Assembly (NCBI GenBank): GCA_017455205.1
Contig: JAFTBM010000014.1
Location: 1-37,147, forward strand
Length of the DNA: 37,147 nucleotides
Reading direction: 5' to 3'
From: Bacteroidales bacterium
GTDB taxonomy: Bacteria; Bacteroidota; Bacteroidia; Bacteroidales; P3
Shown here: positions 25-34,289 of the stretch, in pieces
How positions within the stretch are numbered: the stretch's first letter is position 1
Layout: each line of letters begins with the position of its first letter
Notes under the pieces: model-generated
Told to the model about the DNA's origin: nothing
Database searches by the model: none
The model's input: only the letters and a program-made list of their open reading frames with translations
Made by a program: the position numbers and the translations under genes

Positions 25-576
25 TTATATTCGAGGTCTTATTTGTAACACCATCGATTTTGAGGGGTTTGTCATTCTAAAGTGGTCGAATTCGATCACT
101 TTAAAGTTGGGATCGATTAATTGCAGTCGTTGGTTAATCCACCCTTCGCTGTAGCCTTTGGCACGGTAGAAGTCGGCACCACGAGCGATAGCTTTCTCAG
201 GGTCGGCTATCTCATCCAGCCGTTCTGCTCCGACCTGCGCCATCCATTGCTTGAATGGCTCAACTTTAGGTGAGGGGATGGATTGGATAATGCGCAGAAG
301 CTGTTTTGTATCAGCCACATCCGTAAGCCTGTGCTTCCCATCGGTTGAGACCATTTTCAACTGCTTACAATTTGTAAGCAGTTCATCAGCACCCTCAGCT
401 TTGAGGCGTTTTTTAAGCACAGCCCAATAGGTGCTGGCATTTCTGGCAGTGGGTTGGTCTGTCAGCACCGCCACTACATCCACCACCGAGAAGTACCACT
501 CCTCGTGCTCCGCATCCCAATGTGTGCGCACCTTCTTATCTTGGAATATCTGGATCTTCTGCATATTATTTGTCAT
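25..576 (-). CDS. BRO-N domain protein (phage antirepressor-like), apparently truncated
   Basis: Residues ~5-100 carry the BRO-N pattern: an EEWYFSVVDVVAVLT stretch, then YWAVLKKRLKAEG, the block TNCKQLKM, and later LLRIIQSIPSPKVEPFKQWMAQVG. Such proteins occur in prophages and mobile elements of Bacteroidales and are thought to be DNA-binding antirepressor-type proteins. From memory, full-length relatives run to roughly 270 residues, while this one ends after ~183. The tail after WINQRLQL reads DPNFKVIEFDHF, which resembles the NPNFKVIEFDGF stretch of Bacteroidales KilA-N proteins rather than the usual BRO-N continuation, so the gene may be a recombinant or frameshifted remnant. I chose ATG at 576; the longer reading from 594 needs a TTG. 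It lies 19 bp beyond the end of the nifJ remnant. Confidence 0.7.
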   Translation of the reverse strand: MTNNMQKIQIFQDKKVRTHWDAEHEEWYFSVVDVVAVLTDQPTARNASTYWAVLKKRLKAEGADELLTNCKQLKMVSTDGKHRLTDVADTKQLLRIIQSIPSPKVEPFKQWMAQVGAERLDEIADPEKAIARGADFYRAKGYSEGWINQRLQLIDPNFKVIEFDHFRMTNPSKSMVLQIRPRI

Positions 577-595
577 TATAAGGCAAAATGGCAAA

Positions 596-1365: not shown

Positions 1366-1534
1366 ACCCAATTCTCAATTCTCAATTAAGTGAATTGTGA
1401 TTTGTGATAAGAGAGAGGGCAGCGACCCAATTCTCAATTCTCAATTCTCAATTAAGTGAATTGTGATTTGTGATTTGTGATAAGAGAGAGGGCAGCGACC
1501 CAATTTTCAATTCTCAATTCTCAATTCTCAATTA
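1366..1534. repeat. Nested direct repeat built from 7-bp units (CAATTCT and GTGATTT)
   Basis: Three direct copies of a longer unit begin ACCCAATT at 1366, 1425 and 1498. Each starts with a run of CAATTCT heptamers; the first two continue into GTGATTT heptamers and an AGAGAGAGGGCAGCG segment. Copies one and two are 59 and 73 bp long; the 14-bp difference equals one extra heptamer of each kind, the mark of slipped-strand expansion. The tract ends 8 bp before the 11-bp-phased array at 1543. Confidence 0.85.
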
Positions 1535-1542
1535 CCACCATC

Positions 1543-1646
1543 TCCGTGTCATCTCCGTGTCAACTCCGTGTCAGGTCCGTGTCACCTCCGACTCGATACG
1601 GACCTGACACGGATCAAACACGGCCCATGCACGACCCAAACACGGG
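1543..1646 (+). repeat. 11-bp-phased dyad array, copy 1 (five octamers each side)
   Basis: TCCGTGTC-type octamers start at 1543, 1554, 1565, 1576 and 1587, exactly 11 bp apart. At the centre the orientation flips (TCCGACTC abutting GATACGGA around a TCGA), and inverted octamers start at 1595, 1606, 1617, 1628 and 1639, again 11 bp apart. Three-base spacers separate the octamers. The spacing is about one helical turn, so every octamer would face the same side of the DNA. A near-identical copy in opposite orientation lies at 34168-34271, and a related one at 17189-17270. Function is unknown. Confidence 0.9.
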
Positions 1647-1757
1647 GGAAGTCCCTATCCGACTTTTGGCAAATTCTGCCTTTGTTGAAGTCGCTTTTTG
1701 GCTTGCACGGCTGTGGGGGCGACGCTGTGGGCCGTTGGAACTCGGCGGGGAAGGAAC

Positions 1758-17188: not shown

Positions 17189-17270
17189 CGCCTATCCGAC
17201 CCGTATCCGCACCGCCCGGATACGGACTTGATACGGAGTGGATACGGAGCGGATACGGAGCGGATACGGA
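17189..17270 (-). repeat. 11-bp-phased dyad array, copy 2 (GATACGGA octamers)
   Basis: GATACGGA occurs at 17219, 17230, 17241, 17252 and 17263, exactly 11 bp apart, with spacers CTT, GTG, GCG and GCG. On the other side of the centre, weaker inverted octamers start at 17211, 17200 (CCCGTATC) and 17189. The 8-bp central step is the same as in copies 1 and 3, but the octamer is changed (GATACGGA rather than GACACGGA). It lies in the 510-bp gap before topA. The rest of that gap shows no gene I can support. Confidence 0.85.
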
Positions 17271-17283
17271 GCGGGTGGGTAGC

Positions 17284-17318
17284 GGAAATTGAGAATTGAG
17301 AACTGAGAATTGAGAATT
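17284..17318 (-). repeat. Five 7-bp repeats beside array copy 2
   Basis: Five consecutive heptamers: GGAAATT, GAGAATT, GAGAACT, GAGAATT, GAGAATT. This is the reverse complement of the CAATTCT family at 1366-1534. It lies 13 bp from the array, on the same relative side as in the other copies. Confidence 0.85.
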
Positions 17319-26423: not shown

Positions 26424-26494
26424 TTTTTTTCTACTCCTCCCTCCCACTTTTTCTTTTTTTTCACCAGCGATGTTATTCAACAGATAATCAATCG

Positions 26495-26561
26495 TTTCTC
26501 AATAGTTCTTCAATAGTTTATTGAAGAACTATTGAAGAACTATTGAAGAACTATTGAAGAA
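26495..26561 (+). repeat. 11-bp-phased array with TTGAAGAA octamers and an inverted left arm
   Basis: TTGAAGAA starts at 26521, 26532, 26543 and 26554, exactly 11 bp apart, separated by CTA. To the left, inverted octamers TTCTTCAA (26506) and TTTCTCAA (26495) are also 11 bp apart with a TAG spacer. A perfect 16-bp hairpin (26500-26515 with 26519-26534, 3-nt loop) results. It lies in the 282-bp gap after mltG; the preceding 26424-26460 is pyrimidine-rich (T-runs) and may help terminate mltG transcription. The remaining sequence to 26680 shows nothing clear. Confidence 0.9.
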
Positions 26562-26680
26562 CACTCAAGGAAATAGCTGACCGACAGCCGATTGCAGCGA
26601 CTGCGAATTTCCACCGCTTCGGACGCCGCCGTTTGCCACACTTCGGCAGGTTGCAGTTTGCCTATTATCAGGTTCTTATA

Positions 26681-34008: not shown

Positions 34009-34167
34009 CAAAATAAAAATGAACTTCACTGGCAAAAAGTGAATTTGAGCCATAGAAGCGGAAAAGAGGCTACCAAATCCAACGAAGGAGGCCAATTTTG
34101 GCAGATGAGCTGATGCGGAGTGAATGCACGAGGGCGAATGCCCGAAGTGCTGGCGGTAGGGACTTGG

Positions 34168-34271
34168 GGCGTGTTTGGTCTGTGTATGGTTCGTGTTTGA
34201 TCCGTGTTAAGTCCGTATCGAGTCGGACGTGACACGGACCTGACACGGAGATGACACGGAGATGACACGGA
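34168..34271 (-). repeat. 11-bp-phased dyad array, copy 3 (inverse orientation of copy 1)
   Basis: Octamers start at 34168, 34179, 34190, 34201 and 34212, then 34220, 34231, 34242, 34253 and 34264: five and five with a strict 11-bp step and an 8-bp central step. Four on the right are GACACGGA. Read on the minus strand it matches copy 1 almost base for base, including the central TCCGACTC/GATACGGA pair and most 3-bp spacers. It lies in the divergent gap between the regulator-led operon and kamD. The rest of this ~640-bp gap holds no supported gene. Confidence 0.9.
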
Positions 34272-34289
34272 CCAAGTGGGAGGAGAAAA

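Follow-up and report, generated by a model that had tools for sequence, protein, structure and literature searches.

The closest described systems are plasmid centromeres. At the parC site of plasmid R1 the repeats form two groups of five, and two iterons fit into 22 bp (PMC4949242), while parS of pSM19035 requires at least four contiguous 7-bp repeats, in which direct and inverted order are mixed (PMC9499535). As far as the available parts of these reports describe the sites, both resemble the arrays presented here in being contiguous short words set at a fixed step; however, they occur as one or a few plasmid sites with their own par genes, whereas we find well over 150 chromosomal sites belonging to several families. 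The four or more contiguous short words at a fixed step that characterise ParR/ParB-type sites are present in the family we call A, with 4–6 units. Among chromosomal sites, matS and the sites of SlmA and Noc also recur many times per chromosome, for one architectural or division job, but these are single palindromes of one sequence and not arrays of exchanged words.

Dispersed repeats offer a second comparison. REPs are single hairpins with a short conserved palindrome, often in genomes where a RAYT gene carries the same palindromes, and even spacing is to our knowledge no feature of theirs. REP/BIME and RAYT-associated repeats are likewise dispersed, intergenic and dyad-bearing and form species-specific families, but their hairpins differ from 11-bp arrays, and the palindromes next to the two stand-alone Y1 genes of the genome studied here are other ones. 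CRISPR loci have longer repeats, unique spacers between them and cas genes, whereas the present words are contiguous, 11 bp long and have only two variable columns per unit. The original prediction had likewise matched the locus to no repeat class known to it (REP, BIME, CRISPR, ERIC). Porphyromonas gingivalis, a member of the Bacteroidales like our host, carries the BrickBuilt element, which like the arrays has tandem words enclosed by a repeat whose ends are inverted. BrickBuilt is a minisatellite within a MITE, built of 23-nt words, with 19 elements in strain ATCC 33277 and ends matching insertion sequences (PMC4596501); its 23-nt repeat AGAYCATARTATCCTCTCRTRTG differs from the 11-bp words found here in length and in sequence, and the available part of that report makes no mention of even spacing. 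The ~11-bp periodicity of bacterial genomes has the identical period and in E. coli is concentrated in intergenic DNA, but is described in the sections available as a statistical AA/TT signal (PMC4132750, PMC516772), whereas here we see discrete arrays of near-identical words. Dispersed intergenic satellites in prokaryotes (PMC6749651, partial text) and a minisatellite-bearing MITE in Porphyromonas are already known.

The locus lies in a 37,147-nucleotide stretch of DNA from an uncultured Bacteroidales bacterium, the whole of which we refer to as the window (Table 1). The lysine aminomutase gene led to the closest named loci, which belong to uncultured Bacteroidales, often of rumen or hindgut origin. 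A BRO-N domain gene (Pfam PF02498; positions 25–594, minus strand) lies upstream of the first array.

Table 1. Positions of the arrays and their parts in the window.
Feature	Position	Strand	Remarks
Companion 7-bp array, (CAATTCT)n	1501..1533	+	left side of family A element
Family A left arm	1543..1586	+	four exact TCCGTGTCANN units, one every 11 bp; hardly varies among unselected copies
Family A dyad centre, TCCGACTC then GATACGGA (TCCG-N8-CGGA)	1587..1602	+	
Family A right arm	1603..1646	+	inverted, degenerate units, 11-bp steps kept; variable in unselected copies
Right end of element, GAAGTCCCTATC	1648..1659	+	variant of consensus CCAAGTCCCTACC
Family B array	~17196..17286	-	TCCGTATCCRC units, dyad, degenerate right arm; upstream of DNA topoisomerase gene
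Family C array	~26488..26572	-	GTTCTTCAATA units followed by inverted units
Second family A array	34155..34278	-	flanked by LuxR-type regulator gene and lysine aminomutase gene

The array at 1.5 kb had been read as ten octamers at exact 11-bp steps, all on one face of the DNA, in an 8+3 layout too regular for chance. Inside each arm the step is indeed exact, with five octamers starting at 1543, 1554, 1565, 1576 and 1587 on the left and five inverted ones at 1595, 1606, 1617, 1628 and 1639 on the right, although the fifth left octamer is the variant TCCGACTC and those of the right arm are degenerate. Across the centre it breaks down: the dyad cores TCCG (-8 to -5) and CGGA (+5 to +8) are 13 bp apart from centre to centre, which places the two arms off any common 11-bp grid, so a common face exists within an arm but not between arms, where orientation also flips. 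Against chance, the two-unit pattern TCCGTGTCANNTCCGTGTCA with up to 3 mismatches occurs 13 times in the window, where 0.01 occurrences would be expected, and the 11-bp unit is also detected by TRF and by a repeat search of the window; its true division, judged from 32 copies, is 9+2 and not 8+3. The second copy claimed near 34 kb is real (Table 1).

In the window's own genome (G000, a draft of 2.17 Mb in 69 contigs) the same two-unit pattern, again with up to 3 mismatches, gave 460 matches compared to 3 for a reversed control. Family A comprises at least 76 arrays there, counted with a pattern of the last left unit plus centre (77 exact rows, one array being found on both strands). Its consensus runs from the end (GGTA)GGGACTTGG through four TCCGTGTCANN units, the TCCG-N8-CGGA centre and right-arm units of ACACGG type to the end CCAAGTCCCTACC. 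The ends are inverted-repeat-like (GGTAGGGACTTGG / CCAAGTCCCTACC), the left one varying, and the copies are dispersed, with flanks that differ from copy to copy. Scanning the genome and its relatives, the check originally proposed, shows the 11-bp period kept in the other copies examined, while relatives keep the period and change the letters. Among 57 fetched family A copies, a biased set collected from BLAST hits and exact matches to two units, CAATT repeats occur within 60 bp of the left flank in 34 and ATAACC-type repeats in 7 more (41/57 in total), compared with CAATT repeats in none of the 57 right flanks; of the 27 regions that carry 7-bp arrays, 23 have an 11-bp array as well. The 7-bp repeats CAATTYT and CCTATAA (window 1390–1533; left flanks in L009–L065) are found left of family A arrays in many cases and of family B arrays in some, and a TGTGATT 7-bp repeat in window 1390–1533 is similar to the heptad WATCACW of omega protein. 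By eye, some family A arrays (L014, L029, L051 and others) are nested in a larger repeat, possibly a MITE, with ends like CAATAGTG..CACTATTG and CAATAGTGYCCTAAACGTTTT / AAACGTTTAGGGCACTATTG.

Sequence constancy, measured in family A only, was determined anew on 32 copies from stretches picked regardless of arrays; these copies were retrieved by a profile derived from the biased set, and their scores drop from 95 to 44 with the gap between empty. The left unit consists of nine near-constant columns and two variable ones: 1 of 1152 cells deviates in the left-arm nonamers, 55 of 256 in the left spacers, 51 of 512 in the dyad centre and 283 of 1408 in the right arm. Because gene conversion alone would homogenise the spacers too, we read the constancy of the left nonamers as selection, and infer from it that the left arm is selected for sequence-specific binding; the invariance favours a putative bound protein.

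Family A is one of several. The array detector works with a threshold, and genes were called with a home-made codon model that gave plausible genes in the window. A first sample of G000, 437 kb made up of the window and 20 stretches of 20 kb each, had 54 period-11 and 20 period-7 arrays in its intergenic DNA but no period-10 or period-12 ones; over the same 437 kb, shuffled intergenic DNA gave no arrays and coding DNA none of period 11. In 810 kb, 71 intergenic regions carry period-11 or period-22 arrays, assigned to families A (30), B (20), C (12), D (5) and E (1), with three left unassigned. The words of families B, C and D are TCCGTATCCRC, GTTCTTCAATM and GAAGAAGRGGG, and all three show, in register, runs of near-identical units beside the dyad followed by a less regular continuation. 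Consecutive units number 4–6 per array in family A (the 57 fetched copies), 4–5 in B and 2–4 in C. Families A and B, which share a TCCG core, may be related, whereas C and D look unrelated to them; by eye, the TCCG-N8-CGGA centre recurs in family B and in a family of the relative G047. Genome-wide, family B has at least 56 arrays (exact rows) and family C about 25 (50 rows from both arms). Overall, the G000 samples hold about one intergenic 11-bp-phased array per 11 kb, and period-11 and period-22 arrays together reach 12.7 per 100 kb.

Other repeats of this genome were noted alongside. Arrays of 9 bp occur in intergenic DNA at L189:441-496, where direct units pass into inverted ones, and, alike but less clearly, at L201:2992-3095. 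Two loci (L066 and L067, on contigs C62 and C39) hold IS200-like Y1 transposase genes amid clusters of REP-like palindromes (CCCAGGGCAACGCCCTGGG, and GTGCCGAAGGCACG with repeated hairpins), and a third (L068, contig C6, ~176–2572) has a Y1/RAYT-like transposase domain in frame within an open frame of ~800 aa that appears, by eye, DNA methylase/restriction-like with repeated peptides EAKIVSSPKEYIHGEVGNFASL.

The arrays are evenly spaced and keep apart. With families pooled, the first sample has 39 regions and 30 gaps with a CV of 0.35 and a single gap below 4 kb, against a CV of 0.82–0.87 and 8–11 such gaps when positions are drawn at random from intergenic DNA of the same genome. A repeat of the measurement on five further contigs (373 kb), with 32 regions and 27 gaps, yielded a CV of 0.44 and no gap below 4 kb, compared to 0.76–0.85 and 7–8 under the null (P 0.0005 or less). 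A third set, searched with family A, B and C patterns and excluding families D and E, covers 44 contigs outside the earlier samples, bar the first 20 kb of C40, and consists of the matches listed. It holds at least 98 sites (counts of 46, 38 and 14 among the matches listed) and 54 gaps with a median of 9.5 kb; among the matches listed the CV is 0.41, the range 4.8–29 kb and no gap is below 4 kb, while uniform placement gives 17–21 such gaps and a CV of 0.84–0.86, varying with the length assumed for 22 contigs. Again among the matches listed, the 22 contigs of known length have 0 of 30 gaps below 4 kb against 11.3 expected and a CV of 0.31 against 0.86, and leaving out C40 gives 0 of 25 against 9.6.

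Avoidance extends across families, measured in G000 only. No family C array out of 12 lies within 4 kb of an A or B array where 4.2–4.7 are expected (P 0.001–0.006), all 12 being at least 6.9 kb from any A or B on their own contigs, and families A and B have 0 of 20 within 4 kb against about 4 expected. The exclusion zone between families is about 4–5 kb, with one exception, a pair 1.5 kb apart on C39 formed by family A and the odd family E. The spacing is repulsive, without a strict period, and in nine gaps of at least 15.5 kb no weaker array was found in intergenic regions at least 4 kb from both ends. Arrays of 7 bp show no even spacing in G000. An apparent alternation of neighbouring families (8 same-family neighbours against 16.1 expected in the first 57 gaps, P 0.0046) was discarded after the next 54 gaps, in which, among the matches listed, 23 were same-family and ~21 expected. 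An assembly artefact, in which contig breaks at repeats hide close pairs, was also set aside, as the relative G047, including 200 kb of one contig, has 0 of 28 gaps below 4 kb.

Related genomes keep the step and the spacing with other words. In 600 kb of G047, where the main words are TCCGTCTCACC and GACCTAGTATT, 32 regions leave 28 gaps with a median of 14.6 kb and a CV of 0.52 against 0.87–0.90 at random; no gap is below 4 kb where about 5 would be expected (P 0.0015 or less with each null). In 200 kb of G050, 12 regions and 10 gaps give a CV of 0.43 (P 0.0035–0.016), and the 0 of 10 gaps below 4 kb is not significant alone (P 0.06–0.10). Even spacing is therefore clear in G047 and weaker in G050, and both use words different from those of G000; by eye, the inverted arm seems absent or weak in some relatives (G024 and G050). 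The family A two-unit pattern, with up to 2 mismatches, is found in 13 of 59 genus genomes, while TCCGTNTCANNTCCGTNTCA, with up to 1 mismatch, matches 21 of 121 family genomes, namely 17 of the window's genus (its own included) and four others with one match each. Among ten genus species without or nearly without TCCGTNTCANNTCCGTNTCA, four have period-11 arrays of other words (one stretch of 6–20 kb each, 184 kb), compared with no period-11 and two period-22 arrays in ten other genera (one stretch of 3–20 kb each, 154 kb) and one period-11 array in 594 kb of more distant loci (L082–L148), against the 12.7 per 100 kb of G000 for periods 11 and 22. Conservation of array positions between species was not supported (0/19, 0/17 and 1/24 syntenic pairs, not length-matched; the first figure is for arrays in G000/G047 intergenic pairs). 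G050 (L214–L223) contains in addition thirteen 8-bp intergenic arrays in 200 kb, such as AACGCAAT, AACATATC and GTGAAGAT, with 10 of 11 regions between co-directional genes and different 8-bp words joined at L217 10051-10157.

Even spacing together with cross-family exclusion favours an architectural role. The most likely reading, though at slightly less than even odds, is that the window array belongs as one node to a set of putative architectural binding sites spread over the whole chromosome. A sequence-specific DNA-binding protein would load onto each arm head to tail and with cooperativity, occupying one site every 11 bp along one helix face per arm, with the two runs meeting at the dyad. 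Arrays bound in this manner would serve as evenly placed anchors or barriers in nucleoid folding, the partition of supercoils or segregation, each covering its own stretch of ~10 kb, and arrays too close together, being useless or harmful, would be lost. The mode of action could be like that of plasmid centromere iterons or like that of a topological barrier. The presence of several different words in one genome counts against architectural sites, as several specificities would be needed; our guess is that different words are made equivalent by paralogous proteins, or by one protein family with easily changed specificity. Further points against such sites are the lack of a strict period, the long gaps without a weaker array, the close pair on C39, the weak or absent inverted arm of some relatives, the lack of support for conserved positions and the weak tendency of A and B arrays to follow the local gene strand. 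In their favour are the absence of a preference relative to GC skew, the lack of even spacing among 7-bp arrays and the resemblance in layout to parC and parS. Of the roles first proposed for the locus, a nucleoid-protein platform, a boundary or supercoiling element and a non-coding mobile unit, an architectural one is favoured by the even spacing and the exclusion, and a bound protein by the invariant nonamers; the supercoiling one is without support in its bend-based form, and the mobile one has dispersed copies and inverted-repeat-like ends in its favour but no target-site duplication.

Mobility is the main rival, though an unlikely explanation overall. The arrays would be MITE-like non-coding families moved by enzymes encoded elsewhere in the genome, with a target immunity that reads the 11-bp architecture and bars nearby insertion. 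The many dispersed copies with differing flanks, the ends GGTAGGGACTTGG / CCAAGTCCCTACC and the larger repeat CAATAGTG..CACTATTG seen by eye around some copies would all be accommodated, and an exclusion zone without a strict period suits immunity. Against this, a target-site duplication signal is absent from the 32 copies, with no clear excess over mispaired flanks, exclusion operates also between families of unlike words, and near-invariant left nonamers next to a variable right arm are a misfit with simple spread and decay. Carriage by phages, plasmids or viruses was rejected, as one 31-base pattern matched nothing in viral contigs and one 201-base query each matched nothing in plasmids or phages. 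RAYT/REP mobilisation was rejected too, the palindromes around the Y1 transposase genes of C62 and C39 being different, REP-like ones.

Head-to-tail 11-bp sites are typical of PhoB-type regulators, and the arrays could in principle be operators for a global regulator of 11-bp direct repeats, of OmpR/PhoB or ribbon-helix-helix type. Their intergenic position, with 14 of 39 array regions of the first sample between divergent genes, and a weak tendency of A and B arrays to follow the local gene-strand majority (32/50, P 0.065) would agree with this. We nevertheless think it improbable: in the first sample 37 of the 69 long intergenic regions contain an array, with all three gene contexts represented, and regulators leave mutual exclusion, even spacing and exchanged words all unexplained. 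The distribution over divergent, co-directional and convergent regions and the lack of an orientation preference of A and B arrays relative to GC skew (24/50, P 0.89) led us to reject a Rho/rut or terminator role.

Strong gyrase or plectoneme-pinning sites, acting through the bendability of ~110–130 bp of phased DNA, would permit differing words. Some BIME-2 elements bind gyrase, and the ~126-bp element with its two phased arms resembles the E. coli gyrase motif, whose flanks from -63 to -17 and from 20 to 66 are periodic at 10.75 bp (PMC6379681, partial text); a period near 11 bp is moreover commonly tied to negative supercoiling in the portion available of another report (PMC4132750). However, when 26 unit words were set against permuted words, their 11-bp amplitude was not raised (mean percentile 0.45–0.48) in bendability, roll, GC, AT steps or purines, using a DNase I trinucleotide table and roll values, on which basis intrinsic curvature and GC-periodic gyrase wrapping were rejected. 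Invariant nonamers would also not be expected of such sites, and we regard this explanation as quite improbable.

Neutral minisatellites, functionless products of replication slippage, would account for tandem units that vary between arrays and species and for the 7-, 8- and 9-bp arrays that occur too, but are very hard to reconcile with the evenly spaced arrays of three species, the exclusion between families seen in G000, the same families at tens of loci, near-invariant nonamers alongside variable spacers and the near absence of intergenic periods 10 and 12. Hardest of all to credit, we find, is an element acting at the RNA level, be it a hairpin terminator, a Rho site or a structured transcript. 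One strand of the left arm is rich in C and has TCC every 11 nt, the window copy when treated as single-stranded DNA folds well (z -6.4) and mirror pairing of the arms in 32 copies (0.65) exceeds register slides of 1 to 5 (0.18–0.44), yet a whole-unit slide pairs nearly equally (0.59–0.65) and 4 of 11 positions per unit are mostly unpaired (14–30% paired), so that pairing follows from the shared cores and selection for a hairpin or cruciform is rejected, the relation to gene orientation is not fixed, a clear inverted arm is missing by eye in some relatives and an Rfam search gave no matches at gathering scores.

Extending the architectural reading from the window to the genus, we propose, somewhat more tentatively, a period-coded lattice, in which the genus would organise its chromosome by intergenic arrays that act as centromere-like or topological anchors, the 11-bp step and a spacing of ~10–15 kb being conserved while the word is exchanged within and between species. 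A full-text literature search, with subscription journals mostly outside it, returned no description of a lattice of evenly spaced 11-bp arrays. Bacterial topological or folding domains are usually assumed to have few sequence-fixed boundaries. For comparison of scale, a modelling paper takes a 21-kb domain as consistent with reported E. coli sizes (PMC12622846, in the part available). If the lattice is real, an array roughly every 10 kb, in families that avoid each other, would provide domain markers that are mapped, countable and testable. If the arrays are instead mobile, insertion exclusion between unlike sequences would also be unusual. As evenly placed anchors, they would raise a new question, namely how step and spacing persist while the sequence changes.
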